A DNA stretch of 27,255 nucleotides from a virus. The notes beneath the pieces were generated by a model, which was not told where the DNA came from, ran no database searches, and saw nothing but the letters and a program-made list of their open reading frames with translations. Shown here one piece after another: positions 1,964-27,255 of the stretch. Made by a program: the position numbers and the translations under genes. Location of the stretch: IMG/VR virus record IMGVR_UViG_3300027743_000075, positions 1 to 27,255 of that record; one strand, 5' to 3'. How positions within the stretch are numbered: position 1 is the stretch's first letter; each line of letters opens with the position of its first letter.

Positions 1964-2125
1964 TTAGCGATACATCGATCCTGATCCCGTAATCTTCTCT
2001 ATGGCGATCTTAGCGCCTAGTCGTAGACAAACAATCCCTATCACTACTCCGCTGATCATCGACCCAACAAGACAGGCGGAATGATTGGCAATATAATCCA
2101 GCACCCCACACAATTCTAATGGCAT
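1964..2125 (-). CDS. Possible 53-residue single-pass membrane protein
   Basis: Leftward from the ATG at 2125 the frame encodes MPLELCGVLDYIANHS and then a hydrophobic segment (about residues 17-36, GSMISGVVIGIVCLRLG) and a basic tail. The ORF exactly fills the otherwise empty gap between the DUF6496-like gene and the portal gene and overlaps the portal start by 7 bases. That favours a real gene. Against it, no good ribosome-binding site is visible. A longer start inside the portal gene (2167) is unlikely. It resembles the other tiny leftward membrane gene at 1164-1337 in size and placement. The function is unknown. Confidence 0.4.
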   Translation of the reverse strand: MPLELCGVLDYIANHSACLVGSMISGVVIGIVCLRLGAKIAIEKITGSGSMYR

Positions 2126-4239
2126 ACAAGAAGACGAAGGACGAGGACGATTTCCTCTCCACGGCACGGGAGCGCTTCAAGCTAAGCGCGGAGTCGGAGA
2201 ACAAGCTGCGCGATCTCCAACTCAGCGATCTCCGCTTCTATTCCGGAGAGCAATGGCCGGATAACGTCAAGCGCCAGAGAGAGATGGACAAGCGCCCGTG
2301 CCTCACGTTGAACCGCATGCCGCAATTCGTCCATCAGGTCACGAACGAAATCAGACAGAACAAGCCCGCGCCGAACGTCTCTCCGGTCGACGATACAGGG
2401 GACAAAGAGACAGCGGAGATCTTCCAGGGCATCATCCGCCACATCGAACGCCAGTCGAAAGCCGATACCGCAAGATCGTACGCAGCCTTCTATGCCGTAG
2501 TGTGCGGACGAGGCTACTATCGCATCCTTGCCGATTACGCGGACCCGATGAGTTTCGACCAGGAACTCTACATCAAGCGCATCAAGAACCCGGCAACGGT
2601 GTACATGGACCCAGCCTGCCAGGAACCGGATTACAGCGATGCGCGGTATTGCTTCATCGTCGAAGATTTAACTGAGGACGAGTTCAAAGCGCAGTTTCCC
2701 GACAAGGATATGTATAGCGCGGAAGACTTCCGCAGCCTGGGAGACGACGCCCCATTCTGGCGATTCGAGAAAGGCGTGCGAATCGCGGAGTACTTCAGCC
2801 GCGAGTTGGTTCCTACTCCAATCGCGAAGCTCGCCGACGGCACCGAACTCCCGCTCGAGCAAGTCCCGCCGGGAGCCAACGTGATCCATCAGCGCGTCTC
2901 GAATATCCCGTTGGTGAAGTGGTGCAAGATCGACGGCTGTCAAATACTCGAGGAAGCGGACTGGCCGGGGCAATGGATACCCGTCATTGCGGCACTCGGA
3001 GAAGAATACGACGTCGACGGCGAGACGGAACTGGCTGGCATGGTGAGGAACGCCAAAGACCCGCAGAGGATGTTGAATTACTGGGAAAGCTGCAAGACCG
3101 AGACGATTGCACTCGCTCCGAGAGCGCCGTACATGGTGGCCGAAGGTCAGACCGAGAACCACGAACAGGAGTGGGCGCAGGCGAATACCCGCAACTATCC
3201 GTACCTGATCTATAAGCCGAAAGCCGTAGGACAGGAGCTGGTCCCGCCTCCGCAACGCCAGGTCTACGAGCCTCCGGTGCAAGCCATCACCGCGGCCGAG
3301 ATGGTTGCTGTAGATCACCTGAAAGCTGCAACCGGCATCTACGACGCAAGCCTCGGCAACCGATCCAACGAGACATCCGGCATCGGCATACACCAGCGCA
3401 AAGTGCAAGGCGAAGTATCCAATTATCACTTCGTCGACAATTTAGCCACCGCGATCACGCATGAGGGCCGCATCTTAGTCGACCTCATTCCGAAGATCTA
3501 CGACCGGCCCGGCCGCGTGGTTCGCATCATCGGCGAGGACGGCACCGAGAAGAGCGTACCCGTCAACGCACGGTTTCAGAAGAGGGATAACGGATCACTC
3601 ATCCTCGATGAGATGCAATTCGATCCGCAGCAGATCACTAAGTTCTACGACCTCAGTGCAGGCCGGTACGACGTAGCAGTATCGGTCGGCCCATCGTACG
3701 CAACCAAGCGCCAGGAGAGCGCCGAGAGCATGATGCAGTTCGCTCAGGTGGCTCCGGAGCTGGTGCCGCGGTATGCGGACCTGCTGGTCACCGCGATGGA
3801 CTGGCCGGGAGCCGATGCGATTGCAGACCGCATCCGTCCGCCCGATATCCCGAAAGAGGGCGAACCGCCGATCCCGCCGCAAGCGCAAGCCGCTATGCAG
3901 CAGATGCAGATGCAGACACAGGAATTGCAGGCGCGGTTGCAGCAGGCCGAGCAGATCATCAACACGCAGAAGCTGCAGATCGATTCCGCGGAACGGATGC
4001 AGATGCGCGATATCGAATCGAAACAGATGCTTGCTGAGATGAAGGCACAGACGGACATCATGCGGGACGCCGGCAAGATCCATAGCGATGTGTTGCAGAC
4101 CGATCAAAAAGTTGAGTCGCAGGAATCGATAGCGCAGTTGAATGCGGAAACGAAGATCACTGCTGAACAGATGAAGTTGGGAGCTAAGAAAGAGCAACAA
4201 CAGAAGCCGCCGAATGGATCGTTTGGGGGAGGGGACTAA
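2119..4239 (+). CDS. Portal protein, P22 gp1-like
   Basis: 706 residues, close to the roughly 725 of P22 gp1. The dodecameric portal sits at one capsid vertex, is the channel for DNA packaging and exit, and carries the tail. Family features are the N-terminal LSDLRFYSGEQWP and RPCLTLNRMPQFVHQVTNEIRQNKP (about residues 35-85), the GRGYYRI segment (about 130), and the helical crown/stem region with LKAATGIYDASLGNRSNETSG (about 405-430). The last 130 residues are a Gln/Met-rich coiled coil (MQQMQMQTQELQARLQQAEQ), as expected for a barrel-like C-terminal extension. No clear Shine-Dalgarno precedes the ATG at 2119. It is followed by a leftward coiled-coil gene and then the scaffold, which is P22 order. 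Confidence 0.93.
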   Translation: MAYKKTKDEDDFLSTARERFKLSAESENKLRDLQLSDLRFYSGEQWPDNVKRQREMDKRPCLTLNRMPQFVHQVTNEIRQNKPAPNVSPVDDTGDKETAEIFQGIIRHIERQSKADTARSYAAFYAVVCGRGYYRILADYADPMSFDQELYIKRIKNPATVYMDPACQEPDYSDARYCFIVEDLTEDEFKAQFPDKDMYSAEDFRSLGDDAPFWRFEKGVRIAEYFSRELVPTPIAKLADGTELPLEQVPPGANVIHQRVSNIPLVKWCKIDGCQILEEADWPGQWIPVIAALGEEYDVDGETELAGMVRNAKDPQRMLNYWESCKTETIALAPRAPYMVAEGQTENHEQEWAQANTRNYPYLIYKPKAVGQELVPPPQRQVYEPPVQAITAAEMVAVDHLKAATGIYDASLGNRSNETSGIGIHQRKVQGEVSNYHFVDNLATAITHEGRILVDLIPKIYDRPGRVVRIIGEDGTEKSVPVNARFQKRDNGSLILDEMQFDPQQITKFYDLSAGRYDVAVSVGPSYATKRQESAESMMQFAQVAPELVPRYADLLVTAMDWPGADAIADRIRPPDIPKEGEPPIPPQAQAAMQQMQMQTQELQARLQQAEQIINTQKLQIDSAERMQMRDIESKQMLAEMKAQTDIMRDAGKIHSDVLQTDQKVESQESIAQLNAETKITAEQMKLGAKKEQQQKPPNGSFGGGD

Positions 4240-4671: not shown

Positions 4672-5649
4672 ATGTCCCTTGTAGTATCCAGCACCACAGA
4701 CAGCCAGGAAGCCGTCAACGCAGCCGCCGGCATCGAAACGGAAGCGCCGGCAGAGCAGCCTTCGCTTCAGCGCGAGGAGCAGGCAGTCAAAGCGCCAGCA
4801 CCGGCCAAGCCCGCGGAGCCTGACGAAGCGGAAGAAGAAACCGAAGAAGAAGGCGACGGCGAAGAGAAGGAAGGCGACGAAGAGCCGGCCAAGCCGAAAC
4901 GCACCGGCGGCTTCCAGCGCAAGATCGAACGGCTCGTCAGAGAGAACGAGTACTTATCGCGCCGCTTCCACGAGCTCGCCTATCAACAACGCCAGCAGCC
5001 CCCGCAGTCCCCGGCAGGACAAGCGGCCTTAGCGCAACGCGATTTCGCGCAGGCCGCCTTAGCGCAGCCCGAAGGACGTCCCCGGCAGGACCAGTTCGAT
5101 TCCTACGACGAGTATCTCGACAAGCTGACCGACTGGAAGCTCGAGGCACGGCTACAGCAGGAGCATACGGCGCAGCAGCAGCGGCAACAGGCCGCGCAGC
5201 AGCAGGAACGACTAACTGGCTGGCAACAACGTGTTGGCCAATTTAAATCGGAAGCACCGGACTTTGAAGACGTACTCGAGTCCGTAGACCACATCAACCT
5301 CACACCCGTTTTGCAGCAGGCGATTATGGCGGATGCACTCGGACCGAAGCTGGCCTATGAGCTGGCACGGAAACCGGAGGACTTCGCACGTATCGCGAGT
5401 CTCGATCCCGTTGGCGCGTTAACCGCGCTGGGCGAATTCAAGGCGAGATTAGAACCTGCAAAAACGGCAGCTCCGCAGCAGCATACAAACGGCAACGGAG
5501 TGAAGCCGGTCAGCCGCGCACCCAACCCGATAAGGCCTGTCGGGCAGGGCGCCGGCGCGACCTCTACCGTTCCCCCGGATCAGATGCCGTTAGGCGACTA
5601 CATCCGGTGGCGGGAACGGTCACTCAAAGCAGCGCGGGGAAAACGTTAA
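4672..5649 (+). CDS. Scaffolding protein, P22 gp8-like
   Basis: 325 residues, highly polar. It has an acidic N-terminal third with an Asp/Glu-rich run (EEETEEEGDGEEKEGDEEP, about residues 54-73), a helical Gln/Ala-rich middle (about 95-180), and a C-terminal stretch ending YIRWRERSLKAARGKR. The basic helical C-terminus matches the coat-binding helix-turn-helix expected of scaffolds, which assemble with coat protein into procapsids and then leave. An AAAGG ribosome-binding site lies about 5 bases before the ATG. The call rests mainly on composition and on position between portal and coat. A small internal duplication (QAALAQRDFAQAALAQPEG) is visible near residue 120. Confidence 0.8.
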   Translation: MSLVVSSTTDSQEAVNAAAGIETEAPAEQPSLQREEQAVKAPAPAKPAEPDEAEEETEEEGDGEEKEGDEEPAKPKRTGGFQRKIERLVRENEYLSRRFHELAYQQRQQPPQSPAGQAALAQRDFAQAALAQPEGRPRQDQFDSYDEYLDKLTDWKLEARLQQEHTAQQQRQQAAQQQERLTGWQQRVGQFKSEAPDFEDVLESVDHINLTPVLQQAIMADALGPKLAYELARKPEDFARIASLDPVGALTALGEFKARLEPAKTAAPQQHTNGNGVKPVSRAPNPIRPVGQGAGATSTVPPDQMPLGDYIRWRERSLKAARGKR

Positions 5650-5693: not shown

Positions 5694-5793
5694 TTGGCTA
5701 CCAATAACCTGTTAACGATCAGTATGGTGACGCGTGAAGCAGCACGTATACTGACCAACAATTTGTGTTTCACAAAGCAGATCAATCGAGAGT
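5694..5793 (+). CDS. Major coat protein, P22 gp5-like, exon 1 (split gene; joins to 6670-7781)
   Basis: From a TTG start at 5694, preceded by AAGGA at 5682-5686 with 7-base spacing, the frame encodes 33 codons: MATNNLLTISMVTREAARIL, then TNNLCFTKQINRE. This is the typical N-terminus of environmental P22-type coat proteins, whose members continue NREY..QFA..GAKIG. Here the last base T5793 plus intron bases AA make a TAA stop, so unspliced RNA gives only a 33-residue peptide. Joining T5793 to A6670 restores TAT (Tyr) and the expected continuation YSDQFARSGAKIGSVLNIRKPP. The coat gene is therefore interrupted, and this is its first exon. Confidence 0.88.
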
Positions 5794-6669
5794 AAACATA
5801 CATGCTCCCTCAGCGAGCAATCGCTGAGTGCACAACGCCGTGAATTCGGTGAACGCCTAAAGACTGCGAATAAGTACTAGTTCGTAACTTTGCGAATGGG
5901 TACTTCTTGTCCATTGTGGTTCGCTAAACAGCCTGCCACGCTGGTATTTGCAGCCCATGGTAACGCCGAGCCAAGACCTGAAAACTTGCAAACTCTGTGG
6001 TGAGACGAAGTCGATTACTGAGTTTTACCAGAGGTATCGTTCTAAACGAACGGGGTTAAAAAGTATCTCGTGTGAATGCAAGTCATGCACAATAGACCGC
6101 ACCAGAACGCGCTATTACGGTCCTACGTATGCCGAGATCAAGGATCGCGAGAACGCTAAAAATCGGTCGAGGCGTCAGATTGTCAAAGCAATCGTGTTTT
6201 CCAAATACTGTGAAACTACTGACCCTCGATGTGCATGTTGCGGAGAAAAGGAATTAATCTTCCTGACTCTGGATCACATCAATAATGATGGTGCAGAGCA
6301 TCGAAGAGAGATCCACGGAAGGCAGACTGCTGCAGGCTATCAGACCTATCGTTGGCTGATGCGCAATGGTTTTCCTCCGGGCTTCCAAGTTCTATGCGCC
6401 AACTGTAATCATGGCAAGCGCATGAACGGAGGCACCTGTCCGCATCAGGTAAGGTCTAACGACTATCCCATGACGGGAGTAGAGCCAAACGGCTCGAAGC
6501 GCGGCGAGCCCCTCGTGGGCTATGAAATAGTCTCCTCCGTTGCGAAAGTAACGGCAGCGACCAGACTCCTTAGGGATTTGAGGGAAGTGCTTAAAAAGCA
6601 CAAGGCTCTTGAATTACACGAGGAACTGGAAGCGGAGTTCGAGCTAGTGACTCAACTCGAAGATTAAGG
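5794..6669 (+). ncRNA. Group I self-splicing intron in the coat gene, with an HNH endonuclease ORF
   Basis: 876 nt. The base before the intron is U and its last base is G, as group I introns require. A possible guide, GCUC (5805-5808), pairs with exon GAGU (P1, short). P2 is CTCAGCGA/TCGCTGAG with a GCAA loop (5809-5828). P4 is TCGGTG (5846-5851) with CGCCGA (5964-5969), inside the motifs AATTCGGTGAACGCC and GGTAACGCCGAGCC. These resemble the P and Q core elements of the Azoarcus tRNA intron. P5 includes CTGC/GCAG (5864-5867/5950-5953) and carries extra stems such as AAGTAC/GTACTT. P6 is AGACC (5974-5978) with GGTCT (6453-6457), enclosing most of the ORF. P7 is GACTAT (6461-6466) with ATAGTC (6527-6532). 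P9 is CCGTT/AACGG (6537-6554). P3 is only tentative: CCGT (5838-5841) with ACGG (6473-6476). Subgroup is probably IC-like, uncertain. Confidence 0.88.
5957..6667 (+). CDS. Intron-encoded HNH homing endonuclease
   Basis: 236 residues from the ATG at 5957 (TTG at 5948 is an alternative). Such enzymes cut intronless alleles near the insertion site, and repair copies the intron across. Visible features are an N-terminal zinc-binding region (CKLC at residues 11-14; C39, C41, C44) and a basic middle. The HNH domain has CACC (92-95), LTLDHINNDGAEHR (103-116, catalytic His after Asp) and LCANCNHGKR (146-155). The ORF starts inside the ribozyme Q element and has no clear ribosome-binding site. Its last roughly 70 codons run through P7, P8-like stems and P9, and its stop is 2 bases before the 3' splice site. 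The helical C-terminus (LLRDLREVLKKHKALELHEEL) could be real or fortuitous. Confidence 0.85.
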   Translation: MVTPSQDLKTCKLCGETKSITEFYQRYRSKRTGLKSISCECKSCTIDRTRTRYYGPTYAEIKDRENAKNRSRRQIVKAIVFSKYCETTDPRCACCGEKELIFLTLDHINNDGAEHRREIHGRQTAAGYQTYRWLMRNGFPPGFQVLCANCNHGKRMNGGTCPHQVRSNDYPMTGVEPNGSKRGEPLVGYEIVSSVAKVTAATRLLRDLREVLKKHKALELHEELEAEFELVTQLED

Positions 6670-7781
6670 ATAGCGATCAATTCGCCAGATCAGGCGCAAA
6701 GATCGGATCTGTTTTAAACATCAGAAAACCACCAAAGTACATCGGACGCACGGGGCGCGTGTGTGCAATTGAAGACACCGTTGAGACGAGCGTACCGCTG
6801 GCATTAACCACGCAGTTCGGCGTTGACTTGCAGTTCACCAGTGCCGAATTAGCGTTGAGCATCGATGACTTCTCGAATCGCATCTTGAAACCGGCAGTCG
6901 CTGTAGTCGCGAACAAGATTGATTTCGACATGATGTCGCTGTATCAGACAGTGCCCAATGTAGTCGGCACGGCCGGCGTGGTTCCGAATACGCTACTCAC
7001 CTATCTGATGGCGGGCGTAGCTTTGGATGACAACATGGCTCCCAGAGACAATCAGAGGGCCGTCGTCGTAAATCCAATTCAGCAAGCCACCATCGTCGAC
7101 GCGCTGAAGGGCTTGTTTCAAAGCGCGGATCAGATCGAAGACCAATATGAAAAGGGCACGATGGGGATCACGGGCGGATTCAAGTGGTGCATGGACCAAA
7201 ATACGCGAGTCCATACCGCAGGTGCCTACGGCGGCGCTCCTATCGTAGCCGGCGGTTCACAGGTAGGCTCCACGCTCAACGTGTCGGGCTTCACCGCGGC
7301 CGCAGCGCCTCGCCTGAAGAAGGGCGATATGTTCACCCTCACAGGCGTGAACGCGGTGAACGGTCAGAACCGTCAGGATCTGGGCTATCTGCGCACCTTC
7401 ACCGTAACCTCGGACGTAAGCTCCGATGCCGGCGGTTTGGCAGCGGTGCCGATCTATCCGCCCATCACGCCAACCGGCGCAAGCCAGACCGTGACCGCCA
7501 GCCCAGCAGCGGGCGCACCGCTCACCATGACGTTCGTCGCCAACTCGAAGACAGCGCAAGCCATGGCATTCCACAAGGATGCGTTCACGTTCGCGACGGC
7601 CGATTTGCCGTTACCGGATGGCGTCGACATGGCATCCCGCGTCAGCGATTCGCAGTTAGGCGTATCGGTTCGCATGATTCGTCAATATCAAATCTGCGAC
7701 GATGTTTGGCCAACTAGATTGGACGTTTTATACGGTTTTGCAGCGGTTTACCCAGAGTTGGCCTGCCGCATAATCAGCTAA
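6670..7781 (+). CDS. Major coat protein, P22 gp5-like, exon 2
   Basis: This exon continues from 5694-5793, giving 403 residues against 430 in P22. Several hundred copies form the icosahedral shell. Signature segments are YSDQFARSGAKIGSVLNIRKPP at the junction, FTSAELALSIDDFSNRILKPA, DALKGLFQSADQIEDQYEKGTMG, FKWCMDQNTRVHTAGAYGG, and RLKKGDMFTLTGVNAVN within the inserted I-domain-like region. The C-terminus has SVRMIRQYQICDDVWPTRLDVLYGFAAVYPELACRI. Calling the gene from its first internal ATG-like codon (6759) would lose about 63 N-terminal residues that the family conserves, including exon 1. Downstream is AAGGAGA and the next virion gene. Confidence 0.93.
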
Positions 7782-8455: not shown

Positions 8456-9109
8456 ATGGCAGTCACCGTTCAACAATTCATAGAATCGACCCTGCGTCTC
8501 ATCCGCGTGCTCGACTCTGGAGAGCAGCCAACCGCGACCGAATCGGATAACGCGCTCACCGCTCTGAACCAGATGATCGGGAACTGGTCGGCGGCGGGCG
8601 TTCCGATCTACCAGGAGAGCAAGGATACGATTGCGCTTACCGGCGCGTCGGTATACCCGCTGTCCTTCCGTCCCATGAGGATCACCGCCGCACAGGTTAG
8701 CTACTCGGGCATCACCTTCCCGGTGGCAATCGTTCCTTCGCAACAGTGGATACTCCCCAAGGACCGCACCGCTACCTCGAAGTTCGCCAAGGAACTCTAC
8801 TACGACGGGACCTTCCCAACGGGAAATGTGTACCTCTGGCCAATTGTGCAAGCCGGATCGTCGCTCGAGTTGTTCTCGCTGAAACCCTTGGCGCAGTTCG
8901 CTAGTTTGGGCGATGTCATCAACCTGCCGGCGGGCTATGAGCAGGCTTTGCGGTATGGTCTGGCTGGCGTATTGGCGCCGGAATATGGCTCGGCCTTACC
9001 CGCTGAATACCAGCAGCAGGCAGCGCAGGCTACCTCCGCGATAGCCGCTATGAATACCGCCACGCTCGGGCAGGGCGCGGCGCCGTCCGCAGTGCCCGCA
9101 GCCTCTTAA
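8456..9109 (+). CDS. P22 gp4-like tail accessory / packaged-DNA stabilisation protein (copy 1)
   Basis: 217 residues, AAGGAGG ribosome-binding site upstream. In P22, gp4 binds the portal after packaging, closes the head and builds the neck. The N-terminal helical signature is here: FIESTLRLIRVLDSGEQPTATESDNALTALNQMIGNWSAAGVPIY (about residues 8-52). A central beta region with YPLSFRPMRITAAQVSY and TGNVYLWPI follows, then a C-terminal helical part (LPAGYEQALRYGLAGVLAPEYG, about 163-185) and an Ala-rich tail. A second, longer gp4-like protein is encoded at 12062-12847. The two share the same order, N-terminal helices, beta core and PxGYxxALRxGLA. It ends with a 4-base overlap of the convergent methyltransferase gene. 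Confidence 0.75.
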   Translation: MAVTVQQFIESTLRLIRVLDSGEQPTATESDNALTALNQMIGNWSAAGVPIYQESKDTIALTGASVYPLSFRPMRITAAQVSYSGITFPVAIVPSQQWILPKDRTATSKFAKELYYDGTFPTGNVYLWPIVQAGSSLELFSLKPLAQFASLGDVINLPAGYEQALRYGLAGVLAPEYGSALPAEYQQQAAQATSAIAAMNTATLGQGAAPSAVPAAS

Positions 9110-12061: not shown

Positions 12062-12847
12062 ATGGCACTCTGGAACTCCTCTATCTGGAACTCGACCGAG
12101 TGGGGCGGCAGCTCGTCCTCCGGTGGAGGGATGCGTCCCGTAACCGCGGGACGTCTGATCTACGACGCGTATCGCGCCCTCGGTGTCTTGCGTCCCGGCC
12201 AGCTCACCAGTCCGGAAGGGCACGAAGATGCTTTCGGCCTGCTCAATGACATGGTCGATTCGTGGAATACCGAATCGCTCATGATCCCGTCGTTGCAGCG
12301 AAGTGTCTATCCTCTGACCGCCGGCGTGGGCTCGTACACGCTGGGACCGGGCGGCTCACTGAGCGGGGATAGGCCGCAGCGGGTGATGAGCGCAGCGTTA
12401 GTCGCATGTGATTGCGGGTGCGGTTGCGCGGACGGCAACTGCCGGCAGTTGGTCTTGCGCTCCGGGTGGCTGGACTGCGGCTGCAATTGCGGCATCCATA
12501 TCGACCGGGCGTTTCCGAACGCGAACGTTCGCATTAATCCCGCGCCGTCCGACGGGCAGTCGCTGGCCTTGCAGTCCTGGCAGACGCTTTCAGGCTTTGC
12601 GGATCTCGATTCGCAGTACGGCTTCCCTCCCGGCTATGCGTTGGCATTACGTTGGGGACTCGCGCTGCAGCTCGCGCCGGCGGCTCTCATCATGATGAAA
12701 ATCCCGCAGAACCTGCTGCAAGTGATAGAACAACGCGCTATCGACGCCAAGGCTGCGGTTAAGTCGTTCAACTCCAGCCCGATCCCCGAGATGGATAGCG
12801 GGTTCGGCGGCTGCGGCTACGATATCTGCTCTGACAGCTATTGCTAA
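12062..12847 (+). CDS. P22 gp4-like tail accessory protein (copy 2), with a Cys-rich insertion
   Basis: 261 residues. The N-terminus starts MALWNSSIWNSTEWGG. Then comes the gp4 signature TAGRLIYDAYRALGVLRPGQ and AFGLLNDMVDSWNTESLMIPSLQRSVYPLTAGVGSYTLGPGG (about residues 28-103), which matches head-tail adaptors of this family. FPPGYALALRWGLALQLAP (about 187-205) corresponds to the C-terminal helix also seen in copy 1. Unusual features are a Cys-rich stretch CDCGCGCADGNC then LDCGCNCG (about 115-142) and a Cys-rich C-terminus (CGYDICSDSYC), 12 Cys or so in all, suggesting metal binding or disulfides. It is preceded by the triple dyad repeat rather than a ribosome-binding site. Confidence 0.78.
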   Translation: MALWNSSIWNSTEWGGSSSSGGGMRPVTAGRLIYDAYRALGVLRPGQLTSPEGHEDAFGLLNDMVDSWNTESLMIPSLQRSVYPLTAGVGSYTLGPGGSLSGDRPQRVMSAALVACDCGCGCADGNCRQLVLRSGWLDCGCNCGIHIDRAFPNANVRINPAPSDGQSLALQSWQTLSGFADLDSQYGFPPGYALALRWGLALQLAPAALIMMKIPQNLLQVIEQRAIDAKAAVKSFNSSPIPEMDSGFGGCGYDICSDSYC

Positions 12848-24056: not shown

Positions 24057-24333
24057 GGTTTGTCCTTCGCCGCAGTAGATCTTCGAGGTCCGTCTGATTC
24101 CGAATCCGGCGCAGTCGGTCTTCTTCGGGATCGACCGGGGGGATCTGTGGTTTTTGGGGAACCGCTTTTTGCAAGGCATCCTTGCGGATCCGGCGGACAC
24201 TGAATAACGGCCGGCAGTATTTCCAGGCCCACTCGCCGTTCGGACAGTCGCAGGGCTGGTAACCGGTGGGCGTCTCCTTGAGGCCGGTCCCGGCGCAAAC
24301 ACTGCAACGCTGTTTCCAGCGGTCGTCGCTCAC
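24043..24333 (-). CDS. Small protein with N-terminal DnaJ-like zinc finger
   Basis: 96 residues from a GTG that overlaps the upstream stop by 4 bases. The N-terminus carries CSVCAGTGLKETPTGYQPCDCPNG (about residues 10-33), a CxxCxGTG half-site followed by CxC, like a single DnaJ-type finger. The C-terminal 50 residues are charged and basic (EEDRLRRIRNQTDLEDLLRRR). It and its downstream neighbour form a tandem pair of CxxCxG proteins. Confidence 0.6.
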   Translation of the reverse strand: MSDDRWKQRCSVCAGTGLKETPTGYQPCDCPNGEWAWKYCRPLFSVRRIRKDALQKAVPQKPQIPPVDPEEDRLRRIRNQTDLEDLLRRRTNHDPS

Positions 24334-24893
24334 TGGGTTTCCGTTAGCTTCTTTAATCCGAGTTGGAGTTCAAGGTCGGCAAGGAGGCGCGCTGTTTCCT
24401 CCTCTGAACGCCGTTTGTTCTGGGCGAGCTGCTCGTTGAGTTCAGCTTCCGCCTCACGCAAGGAAGGGATTCGCTTTATCGGCTTCGGTGGAGGCGTGGG
24501 ATCCGTAGCCGGAGGAGGAGCAGGAGGGGCGTCGCCAGGTATGCGCTTGAACGCATCGGAGGGAATCGGGAAAGGCTCCGGATCGCCAGAGCCTAGGAGC
24601 TTCGCTTCTTTCTTCCACTCTCGAAGCTTGCGTTCCTGCTCGAGGGTTTCGCGTTCGTAAAAGAGGCGCTCGGAAACAGAGGTCCGGAGCAAGAGGAACT
24701 CCGGCAGCGACCAGCGGCGCATCGTATCGCAGGCGATCCGTACCAGGCTTCTCAACTCGTCAGTGCCGAAGACATGGCGTTCGATCGAATCCTGGACTAC
24801 GTCGAGTCCCAGGGGGTCTGTCGGGAAGTAGTCGATACTTGCCCCCATCACGGCCAGGGCTCGCGCTATATCTTTCGGAGTCGCCCTGGTCAT
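24330..24893 (-). CDS. Possible helicase-loader-like replication accessory protein
   Basis: 187 residues. The ATG overlaps the replication protein stop in ATGA, so the two are coupled. N-terminal 75 residues (KDIARALAVMGASIDYFPTDPLGLDVVQDSIERHV, LRSLVRIACDTMRRWSLPEFLLL) look like the small helical domain in phage helicase loaders. The middle is Pro-rich (PPAPPPATDPTPPPKP) and the C-terminus is a coiled coil (EAEAELNEQLAQNKRRSEEETARLLADLEL). It lacks a P-loop, so it is not a DnaC-type ATPase. Position directly after the replication initiator supports the idea; the sequence evidence is weak. Confidence 0.45.
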   Translation of the reverse strand: MTRATPKDIARALAVMGASIDYFPTDPLGLDVVQDSIERHVFGTDELRSLVRIACDTMRRWSLPEFLLLRTSVSERLFYERETLEQERKLREWKKEAKLLGSGDPEPFPIPSDAFKRIPGDAPPAPPPATDPTPPPKPIKRIPSLREAEAELNEQLAQNKRRSEEETARLLADLELQLGLKKLTETQ

Positions 24894-26107
24894 GGCTTCC
24901 CCTCTTCCCGGGCAAAGACGCGCTCGAGGTGAGCCTTCATCGCGGCATCGGCTTTTTCTTTTTGTGTCGGCGGCCGTGCGGGAGCAAACTTACGGGCTGT
25001 AATGGGCTCTGTATCCCAAATCTGACTATTTAGGTATTTCAGCGGGTCCGTTACAAACGTGGGGTCATCCCACTTCTTCCCTTGGGACCGGATAGTGACG
25101 TCATCGATGATGCGCTGTTGCGTTTGGGGGGGGTAGCGAAAAAACGACTGACGACAGGCGGCAATGCGGGGTACGCTGACGGGCCGGCCGCAACCGTCCA
25201 TGAGGAAACAGAAAACCTCAAAGAGTTTGTGCGCTGGGTCTTTGCTGACGACTACCGCTGTTACTGGTTCCGGTTGGGGTTTAGGGATAACTGCTGGAGG
25301 GGAGGGGGGGAAGTATTTGGGTTGTTCCGGTTCCTCTACACTACTAGTAGCTTTTACGCCCCCCTCTGTCCCGCCGTATATATCTTCTAATTCTTCTAAT
25401 TCTTCTTCAATAAGGATAGGCCCACTGAAAAGTGCATTTTCCGCTACCTGCTTGTAGCGACTTTGTAGCTCTGCCAGGTCTTTTTTATAGTCCTCGCTAA
25501 GGCTTTTCAGCCGTTCTACCGTTGTAGCGGAATTCGCTACATCCTGGCTTACATGTTCTGGGCTTTGGAGGATCTTACGGAGGAAAGGAGGGAGAAAAGT
25601 GTAAGCTAGATTGTAGCGAATTTTGCTACATGCTTGCTTACTCTTTGTCTCGGCGGCGAGCCGCTTTGGATCGAGAACAGGATACCAGACTTTTTCGGGA
25701 TCGTGCTCCTCAAGACAACCTTGGCTGATCAGTTTGCGGATGGCTCGGGAGACATGGATGCGGTTATGGCCTGGAGTAAGCCCTAGGATCTGGAGTAGGT
25801 GCTTGACCCGCAGCGGGTATATCTGGCCCTTCTCGTCCGTTACCAGGCGCCCGAGGTCTTCCTTTCTGCCGCTTTCTTTACGCAGAAAGCAGCCCTCTCT
25901 AACGTCCGGGCCGCATGCGCTCGACAGGATCAGCGCCCAGTACACCCGGTCTGTCAAGCATGAGGCAGTAGCTATCTTGTGAAGTGCAAGCTCGCGGGAT
26001 AGGACCGCGTAGGATTTAAAGTCATACTTTTTGCGGAGATCCACGTAACCGGGATCTGCTACGCTCTGCTGATTTTGTAAGATAACTGTCGTTCCCAACG
26101 CCAACAC
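24890..26107 (-). CDS. Phage replication initiator-like protein (lambda O-like organisation)
   Basis: 405 residues from the GTG at 26107. The N-terminal part has a winged-helix-like region (YPLRVKHLLQILGLTPGHNRIHVSRAIRKLISQGCLEEHDPEKVWYPV, about residues 97-144). A long helical, then Pro-rich, linker (EEELEELEDIYGG ... PPSPPAVIPKPQPEP) leads to a C-terminal domain with KKWDDPTFVTDPLKYLNSQIWDTEP (about 345-370), resembling the PxxYLxxxxW ending of DnaD/Rep-type phage replication proteins. The linker DNA holds several GTAGC/GCTAC inverted repeats, as expected for a replication origin placed inside the initiator gene. It is the first gene of the leftward early operon. Confidence 0.65.
   Translation of the reverse strand: MLALGTTVILQNQQSVADPGYVDLRKKYDFKSYAVLSRELALHKIATASCLTDRVYWALILSSACGPDVREGCFLRKESGRKEDLGRLVTDEKGQIYPLRVKHLLQILGLTPGHNRIHVSRAIRKLISQGCLEEHDPEKVWYPVLDPKRLAAETKSKQACSKIRYNLAYTFLPPFLRKILQSPEHVSQDVANSATTVERLKSLSEDYKKDLAELQSRYKQVAENALFSGPILIEEELEELEDIYGGTEGGVKATSSVEEPEQPKYFPPSPPAVIPKPQPEPVTAVVVSKDPAHKLFEVFCFLMDGCGRPVSVPRIAACRQSFFRYPPQTQQRIIDDVTIRSQGKKWDDPTFVTDPLKYLNSQIWDTEPITARKFAPARPPTQKEKADAAMKAHLERVFAREEGKP
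25442..25630 (-). repeat. Cluster of GTAGC/GCTAC repeats inside the replication gene; candidate origin iterons
   Basis: Two 19-bp inverted repeats share the frame TGTAGC-N7-GCTACA, at 25523-25541 and 25612-25630. A third, in the opposite sense, is CGCTAC-CTGCTT-GTAGCG at 25442-25459, and a lone TGTAGC lies at 25464-25469. That makes seven half-sites in about 190 bp. Just to the left (25384-25408) is a TTCTTCTAA-type AT-rich repeat that could ease DNA opening. The arrangement recalls the iterons within lambda O. An origin role is inferred. Confidence 0.55.
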
Positions 26108-26486
26108 CCAATCCGGCGCAAACGCGCCACCGCAGCTAAAAACTTGCAGTTGAGGATTGACTGGCTGGAAACTTATGTGAGAATAAAGCCAGTACTAGCT
26201 CAACTGGTACGTCCTCCCTTCTTTGGGCTCGTAACTTGTCGCTGCTCTAATGTTTTCCAGGCACAGGCAGCAACGAGTTATTTTCCATCGGAGGGGGCCT
26301 TTCTAGACCCTGCTGAACTGGCCGCCGCCGGTCCGGATTCAAAGTCGACATCTTTGCATTAGCCACAGTTGACCCCATAGTTTGTTAACCTCCTAACGAA
26401 CGTTGTAGCCTTTTGGGTACTTTTAGGCGATTCCCCTTCGGCTTTGGAATTGTGATCCTGAATGTTTGAGGCGTCCTCAAACGCTC
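26108..26486. promoter_or_regulatory. Divergent intergenic control region between replication operon and integrase
   Basis: 379 bases with no convincing gene. It holds GGCGC-AAAC-GCGCC (26115-26128), a dyad just upstream of the replication GTG; CCAGT...ACTGG near 26190-26210; a TTGACT (26157-26162) without a good -10; and a TTGACC near 26370. Early leftward and integrase rightward promoters, repressor operators and perhaps attP should lie here. None can be pinned with confidence. One plus-strand frame (26144-26362) is open but looks non-genic. Confidence 0.5.
26464..26482 (+). promoter_or_regulatory. Perfect 8-bp inverted repeat before the integrase start
   Basis: GTTTGAGG (26464-26471), CGT, CCTCAAAC (26475-26482). 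The dyad ends 4 bases before the integrase ATG, at the place of a ribosome-binding site, which is otherwise missing. It could be an operator or an RNA hairpin that limits integrase translation. Confidence 0.5.
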
Positions 26487-27255
26487 ATGGAATTTCATCA
26501 GCAACAACTCCCCCTGTTCGCGGATGCTTTCACAAACGAGAATCATCTGCTGCGGGAAAGTCTGCACTTTGCGGAATCGATCCGCGCGCCCCGTACCTTG
26601 CAGGGCTATTTGAGCGATTGGAAAACCTTTTGCCTGTGGTGTGCCAAGGAAGGGAGGGAAGCCCTTCCCGCCACCACCGACACCGCGAAGCTCTACATAA
26701 CGGACTCGCTGCTTCACAACAAACGCGTCAGCACCCTGCGGCACCATGTCTGCGCGATCATCCATCACCACCGGTTGGCGGGATGTATCGAGCCTTCGCG
26801 CCGGGAGATTCTGACGATCCTCACCGGAGCACAAAGGATTCGGGGCGAACAGATGCGGGGCAAGGCGGCGATCACCGTCGAGCAGCTCCGGATGATGGTG
26901 TGGAGCATCGACCGCCCGGAGCCTGCGCGCACCCGCGACCAGGCCGTTCTGTTGGTCGGCTTTACGTCGGCTCTCCGGCGATCGAACCTCGCGACGTTCA
27001 CACTCGAGGACGTGGACTTCCGGCCCCAGGGTTTTGTCATTCACATCCGGAAAGAGAAGCAGGACCAGACCGGGATCGGCCGCTATATCGGAGTCCCTAA
27101 CGGCAAGCACGCAGACACTTGTCCCGTCCAAGCTTTGAGGGCTTGGCTGACCTACCGCGGCGTCACGCCGGGGCCGGTCTTCTGCGGAATGCGGGCGTCG
27201 AAAATCAACCACGCGAAACCTATCCACACGAACACGCTGGCAATGATTGTCAAGA
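26487..27255 (+). CDS. Tyrosine-recombinase integrase, 3' end outside window
   Basis: 256 complete codons are visible from the ATG at 26487. The N-terminal SAM-like DNA-binding domain includes HFAESIRAPRTLQGYLSDWKTFCLWCAKEG and TLRHHVCAIIHHHRLAG (about residues 27-100). The catalytic domain starts about residue 125. It shows TRDQAVLLVGFTSALRRSNLATFTLEDVDF (about 148-177), with the box I catalytic Arg in ALRRS, then IRKEKQDQTG with the likely catalytic Lys. The HxxR and Tyr motifs lie beyond the window. It integrates or excises phage DNA at att sites. The gene points away from the replication operon and overlaps antisense and shifted ORFs that are only shadows. Confidence 0.85.
   Translation, partial: MEFHQQQLPLFADAFTNENHLLRESLHFAESIRAPRTLQGYLSDWKTFCLWCAKEGREALPATTDTAKLYITDSLLHNKRVSTLRHHVCAIIHHHRLAGCIEPSRREILTILTGAQRIRGEQMRGKAAITVEQLRMMVWSIDRPEPARTRDQAVLLVGFTSALRRSNLATFTLEDVDFRPQGFVIHIRKEKQDQTGIGRYIGVPNGKHADTCPVQALRAWLTYRGVTPGPVFCGMRASKINHAKPIHTNTLAMIVK

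Follow-up and report, generated by a model that had tools for sequence, protein, structure and literature searches.

Introns in phage virion genes and the locus analysed

Among the systems closest to the one described here, the genome record of phage T4 lists group 1A introns with endonucleases in td, nrdB and nrdD (the nrdB enzyme, I-TevIII, being of the H-N-H type). In mycobacteriophage LittleE (PMC3706429), the major capsid gene is interrupted by an intron (about 820 bp) that contains an endonuclease open reading frame (ORF), as shown by reverse transcription PCR (RT-PCR); the ORF is termed HNH in a legend and LAGLIDADG-like in the text, and an intron in the capsid gene of Tuc2009 is cited. 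Likewise, group I introns have been predicted in the major capsid protein genes of crAss-like phages (several per gene in one case; PMC7886860), and ICP1 possesses tape measure introns with HNH-3, for which splicing was demonstrated by RT-PCR and turnover of the HNH was found at fixed splice sites (PMC10448857). Here we analyse a 27,255-base IMG/VR virus record of an uncultured phage (IMGVR_UViG_3300027743_000075, hereafter the window), in which a P22-type coat gene is divided by an insert of 876 nucleotides. We are confident that this insert is a mobile group IA intron with an HNH ORF, whose self-splicing and homing we infer from established group I biology.

The window intron differs from those of T4 in its host gene (a coat gene, whereas the T4 introns occupy genes of nucleotide metabolism), in the endonuclease type (GIY-YIG in td and nrdD) and in an ORF that covers much of the 3' core. 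Compared by description, LittleE is a siphophage in which the ORF lies on the opposite strand of an intron called ‘most likely a group I’ (PMC3706429); the crAss-like cases concern Delta/Zeta phages and were found through signature domains, mainly of endonucleases (PMC7886860); and ICP1 shares with the window the presence of HNH-bearing introns in a virion gene, differing in that gene (tape measure) and in the endonuclease class (HNH-3) (PMC10448857). The sequence-only reading of this DNA knew of few introns in the major capsid gene of podovirus-type phages; in the light of the LittleE and crAss-like cases, capsid-gene introns are less rare than it supposed, and because of these precedents the window element is in itself one more capsid-gene intron of a known type. 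Searches of open-access literature yielded neither an account of P22-type coat genes with introns nor one of an HNH intron family specialised in capsid genes, and the family pattern presented below is a more interesting result than the window element alone.

The divided coat gene and its intron core

Exon 1 of the coat gene (5694-5793, + strand) begins with TTG, comprises 33 codons and the first base of a Tyr codon, and its frame meets a stop at codon 34; the coat continuation (exon 2, 6670-7781, +) lies in a different frame, and its ORF from 6759 matches P22_CoatProtein (PF11651, 1.2e-38, profile positions 68-421 of 423) and phrog_283 (major head protein). This match, together with the adjacent P22-type portal and scaffold genes, identifies the gene as a P22-type coat gene. 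The intron (5794-6669, +) is preceded by T5793 and ends with G6669, and joining the exons rebuilds the Tyr codon and yields a coat protein of 403 amino acids, the same length as in all six uninterrupted coats extracted from the window's clade. An automated search over exon/intron pairs, scored with a hidden Markov model (HMM) of 21 uninterrupted coat proteins, selected exactly 5794-6669 (129.5 bits; runner-up 121.8). Furthermore, the junction is read through unbroken in 18 of 22 coat relatives from viral contigs (several of them near-copies), for which reason the position and frame of the intron cannot be due to chance; three others (L014, L017 and L021, with identical coordinates) bear an insert at the same nucleotide, and the last (L022) is distant and uninterrupted. 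The uninterrupted relatives possess the exon 1 sequence, with ATG or TTG starts that align with that of the window. The split gene, the T5793-A6670 junction, the restored Tyr and the 403-residue product proposed in the sequence-only reading are thus borne out by the sequence, the read-through relatives and the splice search alike.

The inserts of L014 (295 nucleotides), L017 and L021 have no large ORF; their core is that of the window intron, with helices (P2 included) that are spelt differently. No coat relative was found in the genome contigs scanned. Phage records with a coat match were considered as 30 listed of 95, and when the intron was compared with phage records at the DNA level, 15 of them shared 5-9% of it, all within the 3' core.

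The RNA core could be followed along the + strand from an internal guide sequence (GCTCCC, 5804-5809) that pairs with exon positions 5788-5793, placing a U.G pair at the splice site (four consecutive base pairs at offset 10, one mismatch); the U before the intron and its terminal G, claimed earlier, are read directly from the sequence. A guide was found 8-11 nucleotides from the 5' splice site in 8 of 10 introns inspected. P2 (5809-5828, 8 bp, GCAA loop) and P9 (6537-6554, 7 bp, GAAA loop) were read by eye. The trimmed alignment and family covariation support P3 (5836-5842 with 6500-6506), P4 (5846-5851 with 5964-5969), P7.1 (6467-6477) and P7.2 (6482-6495), while P7 (6461-6466 with 6527-6532) is placed by that alignment and by the covariance model described below, and P8 (6507-6521) by the alignment. 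P6 (5970-5972 with 6453-6455) and P6a (5976-5980 with 6446-6450) follow an extension of the P5 loop of about 100 nucleotides (5858-5957), which exceeds that of 24 compact introns and holds two HNH starts (TTG 5948, ATG 5957). Once the two inserts (in the P5 loop and the ORF in P6a) had been trimmed by hand, P3-P8 formed 40 of 41 pairs, seven of which differ from L014 on both sides. The window thus presents a core from P3 to P9 with the P3/P7 pseudoknot, and both ends of a group I intron (exon 1 U paired with a guide G, last intron base G).

The 24 compact introns (alignment A1) came from other viral contigs and were taken from 34 compact cores (at least 123 pattern matches), with the omission of L014, of the near-duplicates L070, L123, L134 and L150, and of the cores L099, L109, L116, L147 and L156, which looked mis-anchored. 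In their shared structure of nine helices (P3-P8, including P7.1 and P7.2), 98.5% of cells are paired and 25 of 41 pairs show two-sided changes; the covariation score reaches 0.541 (0.150 when shuffled, none of 500 shuffles being as high), and sliding the structure out of register lowers pairing to 34-43%. A covariance model built from these introns (R1), none of which is known to lie at the window's site, detects the L014 intron (127.9 bits, E 1.1e-27) and the 3' half of the window intron (63.2 bits, E 1.1e-12). In 115,621 bases from 19 coat loci that lack this intron R1 has no match, and it has a single one in 80 further coat loci (417,943 bases), where it falls in an intron-bearing locus. 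The likeness to T4 consists in the recovery of all three of its introns by the same model (nrdD 93.3, td 59.6 and nrdB 41.8 bits).

The succession of P7.1 and P7.2 between P7 and P3 is a hallmark of subgroup IA, while Azoarcus-type introns (IC3) have a short P7-P3 junction without P7.1 and P7.2. On the basis of these two helices, the window intron is assigned to subgroup IA (td-like). The Azoarcus-like core of the sequence-only reading was accordingly rejected, given the presence of P7.1 and P7.2 and the fact that R1 also finds the T4 introns, and its P2 with a GCAA loop, its P4-P7 helices and its P9 were retained.

The HNH endonuclease, its lineage and its putative target codons

The intron ORF (5948-6667, +; 239 amino acids from TTG, with an ATG at 5957) is accommodated in the P6a loop: it begins in the P5 loop, the P6a insertion encodes its HNH domain (about residues 83-166), and it continues across P7, P3, P8 and P9 to end two bases before the intron does. 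Its best family match is phrog_2255 (HNH endonuclease, 3.8e-16, residues 8-166), a general phage HNH family that nothing in the PHROG library ties to capsid introns. The AlphaFold model of the protein (mean pLDDT, the predicted local distance difference test, 83.6) could be realigned at residues 5-53 with part of Hpy99I (Z 6.6), and a sequence search of solved structures gave nothing relevant. Across an alignment of 25 HNHs (from which a motif filter missed the site A or C loci L244, L258 and L282), 21 columns are invariant, the window included, among them D109, H110, N113, C150, N152, C153 and H166. The HNH (beta-beta-alpha-Me) motif thus appears intact in the window ORF. A scan of genome contigs for the HNH returned eight relatives.

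In order to locate the codons at which such introns lie, we ran the splice search on 65 loci (repeated on 11), requiring that exon 1 end in T, that the intron end in G and that the frame be kept (the U and G ends are hence conditions and not outcomes), and ranking candidates by HMM score and guide pairing. L140 (in which the automatic choice and the manual reading disagree), L240 (exon 1 off the contig), L245, L292, L300 and L303 were set aside by hand, and L298 was left out for having the same coat hits as L296. Splice sites were resolved in 58 of the 65 loci, corresponding to 41 distinct introns (sharing under half of their 15-mers), 39 of them with an HNH (the exceptions being L014 and L024). 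The Tyr codon of the window (site A) accounts for 14 of the 41, an Ile codon lying 15 residues before it (site B) for 16 and a codon between both (site C) for six; the remaining five, L024 included, occupy single sites, which may be mis-called in L247, L290 and L304 (the HNHs of L247 and L290 nest among those of sites A and B, respectively). Site B is independently supported by the coat relatives of L146 (best 80 of 596), 75 of which match the uninterrupted pattern there (77 by eye, e.g. ITRKALEI-LENNLV), while a contig edge marks the start of two of the others and L183 contains the intron.

On the assumption that the endonuclease is kept only where it cuts, homing predicts that the HNH tree follows the site. 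In the tree of 51 HNHs, that of the window falls in a set of 15 (support 99/91) which contains all 13 site A HNHs together with L240 (site off the contig) and L247, and the site C HNHs form a single group (93/97). Site labels require nine changes along the tree, as compared to 30.3 when shuffled (none of 200 shuffles was as low), a comparison in which near-copies help any clustering.

Two side observations concern coat genes with smaller inserts. In L078 (a P22-type coat gene outside the 58-locus set), 6196-6459 and 6527-6766 look by eye like two compact ORF-less IA introns, both with U/G ends and guide sequences, flanking a mini-exon of about 22 codons. In the deposited phage genome L024 (MW202674.1), the annotation divides the coat gene into two coding sequences, each named ‘P22 coat protein’, between which lies an insert of 268 nucleotides (2654-2921) with U/G ends and an 8-bp guide; it gave no group I match in Rfam and none with R1, and is apparently of another intron type than the window's.

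We extended the comparison beyond these loci with a scan seeded by six such HNHs, retaining the best 80 of 504 relatives. Within these 80, 68 overlap an R1 core or lie at most 150 nucleotides from one. A same-strand P22-type coat ORF accompanies 56 of the 80 (54 of which also have an R1 core). Another 14 have a core and no P22-type coat ORF; 12 of them were tested against Pfam or PHROGs (L306 and L307 being left out), and eight lie in major head genes of the Phage_capsid_3 / phrog_334 type (L255, L257, L259, L264, L275, L281, L285 and L293), the match of L275 being weak (Pfam E 0.0007, below the curated cut-off). A tail sheath gene was found at one of the 12 and no match at three. In the HNH tree, from which L275 was absent, the seven Phage_capsid_3 HNHs lie outside those of the P22-type coats. 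Among the matches listed, introns collected by RNA pattern regardless of HNH lie near either capsid type in 10 of 122 cores, as compared to four of the five that bear this HNH family, and on these grounds the association with capsid genes seems to go with the HNH lineage rather than with the RNA type.

Judging from these relatives, the window intron belongs to an HNH-encoding, td-like lineage located mostly in phage capsid genes. We further consider it probable that this is a widespread HNH group IA lineage specialised in phage major capsid genes, which homes to a few fixed codons of P22-type coats and to sites of the Phage_capsid_3 type, with clades largely matched to codons.

Several loci of the scan depart from the common arrangement. 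In L270 (2775-4304) a family HNH and core stand upstream of the tail sheath gene; in L245 and L275 two intron cores occur within a few hundred bases of one locus beside a capsid gene; and in L300 and L303 HNHs of the site B group, with no detected core, stand upstream of coat ORFs with complete N-termini, which makes them candidates for free-standing or collaborative homing. Moreover, L027 (1838-2650) has an IA core after an endonuclease-like ORF, apparently in a helicase gene (names given by eye).

Competing explanations, implications and genomic context

The reading of the insert as a group I intron with an HNH ORF, advanced from the sequence alone and upheld here, draws its support from the empty sites, the ORF-less homologue at the same site, a covariance model built from outside introns and 12 further distinct HNH introns at the same codon. 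A number of observations weigh against it. The guide pairing contains a mismatch, the introns of R1 were chosen by a P7/P7.1 pattern also present in the window, and among the 24 rows of the model three (L078, L113 and L140) adjoin P22-type coat ORFs (the introns of L078 and L140, by reading, at sites other than the window's). Even with filters off, R1 located just the 3' half of the core in the window, its 5' half (5828-6036) scoring no more than 0.8 bits; the claim for P3-P5 consequently rests on the hand-trimmed alignment. The check proposed in the sequence-only reading, a search with Rfam Intron_gpI (RF00028), gave no match at the gathering score of 50 and 14.3 bits (E 0.94) at lax settings, so that the core was recovered by R1 and missed by Rfam. 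At gathering, nothing was found in L014, L017, L021, L024, L146, L241, L250 or L254 either (in a search of 501 bases, the L014 intron reaches 29.0 bits, E 1.5e-5). The Rfam failure is not decisive, since two of the three T4 introns, td and nrdB, likewise fall short of the gathering score, which nrdD passes. As regards the endonuclease, Pfam assigned no family at E 0.01, Foldseek returned nothing at E 0.001 (the top match, at E 0.06, being the beta-beta-alpha-Me enzyme Hpy99I), the realignment of residues 68-190 with the HNH domains of Cas9 and other HNH nucleases is weak (Z 3-4), and some of the invariant residues belonged to the search patterns and were hence selected for. Finally, the match between site and lineage is imperfect, as the site B HNHs are divided in two, with L248 and L291 separate from the remaining 14.

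By comparison, the data demonstrate that the insert is present or absent at a single nucleotide position, that its core covaries, that HNH residues are conserved and that site and lineage broadly agree; the mechanism proposed below draws on established group I biology. The coat pre-mRNA would self-splice through two transesterifications, in which guanosine attacks after U5793 and exon 1 then attacks after G6669, leaving a normal mRNA for the 403-residue coat. The HNH protein would be made from unspliced or free intron RNA, and during co-infection it would cleave or nick those coat alleles that lack the intron, in the Tyr codon or close to it, whereupon repair from the intron-bearing copy would insert the intron.

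A competing explanation accepts splicing and denies mobility: the HNH ORF would be a relic or have another role, and the pattern would reflect old vertical inheritance. It could invoke the ORF-less copies at the same site (L014, L017 and L021) and the course of the HNH ORF across the ribozyme core to the 3' end, so that RNA structure in part determines its C-terminus. We nevertheless regard it as unlikely, because the window HNH keeps all 21 columns that are invariant among the 25 HNHs (some of them in the motifs used to pick rows), because empty sites dominate the close clade, and because HNH clades and sites largely correspond even where the coats are divergent. Much less plausible is the proposal that a free-standing HNH gene divides the coat into two separately translated subunits without any splicing. 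Such an arrangement might be suspected from the family HNHs that adjoin uninterrupted coat genes without a detected core (L300 and L303), and it is at odds with the earliest ATG, GTG or TTG in the exon 2 frame, which is found only at 6759 (about 30 codons in), with the covarying IA core in dozens of loci, and with the guide seen in most of the introns inspected.

That the locus is an assembly chimera or a decayed pseudogene, as its origin from a single metagenomic record might suggest, is scarcely credible, as other contigs carry 13 further distinct introns at the window's codon and both exons are open and conserved. An intein or recoding (by frameshift or stop read-through) could be proposed for an insert that encodes an endonuclease, and has an equally negligible chance of being correct, given the in-frame stop at codon 34, the change of frame, the group I core and the 295-nucleotide versions without a large ORF, which cannot be inteins.

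Returning to the mobile intron and its HNH lineage, we note that ORF lists split such capsid genes and that Rfam at its curated threshold missed the capsid introns tried; environmental coat proteins are therefore likely to stand truncated in databases, with the element unseen. With about 40 distinct introns, three main codons and endonuclease clades largely matched to them, the family would offer a clean system for the study of shifts in homing specificity, and would also serve to examine how an intron is tolerated in a strongly expressed phage gene and whether co-infecting phages use capsid-targeting endonucleases as weapons against each other. If the proposed specialisation is true, mobile introns would have a recurrent refuge in the most abundant late gene, and cleavage of capsid genes would be a means by which co-infecting phages compete.

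The divided gene lies within a P22-type morphogenesis block, in which a P22-like portal gene (2119-4239, +; Pfam and PHROG profile matches) and a head scaffolding gene (4672-5649, +; PHROG match) precede the coat and adaptor-like and tail genes follow it. At the far end of the window (24330-27227, - strand), three ORFs of 187, 405 and 280 amino acids have no PHROG matches at E 0.001. Downstream of the coat gene, 8456-9109 and 12062-12847 both match phrog_12985, which points to a possible duplication of an adaptor-like gene.

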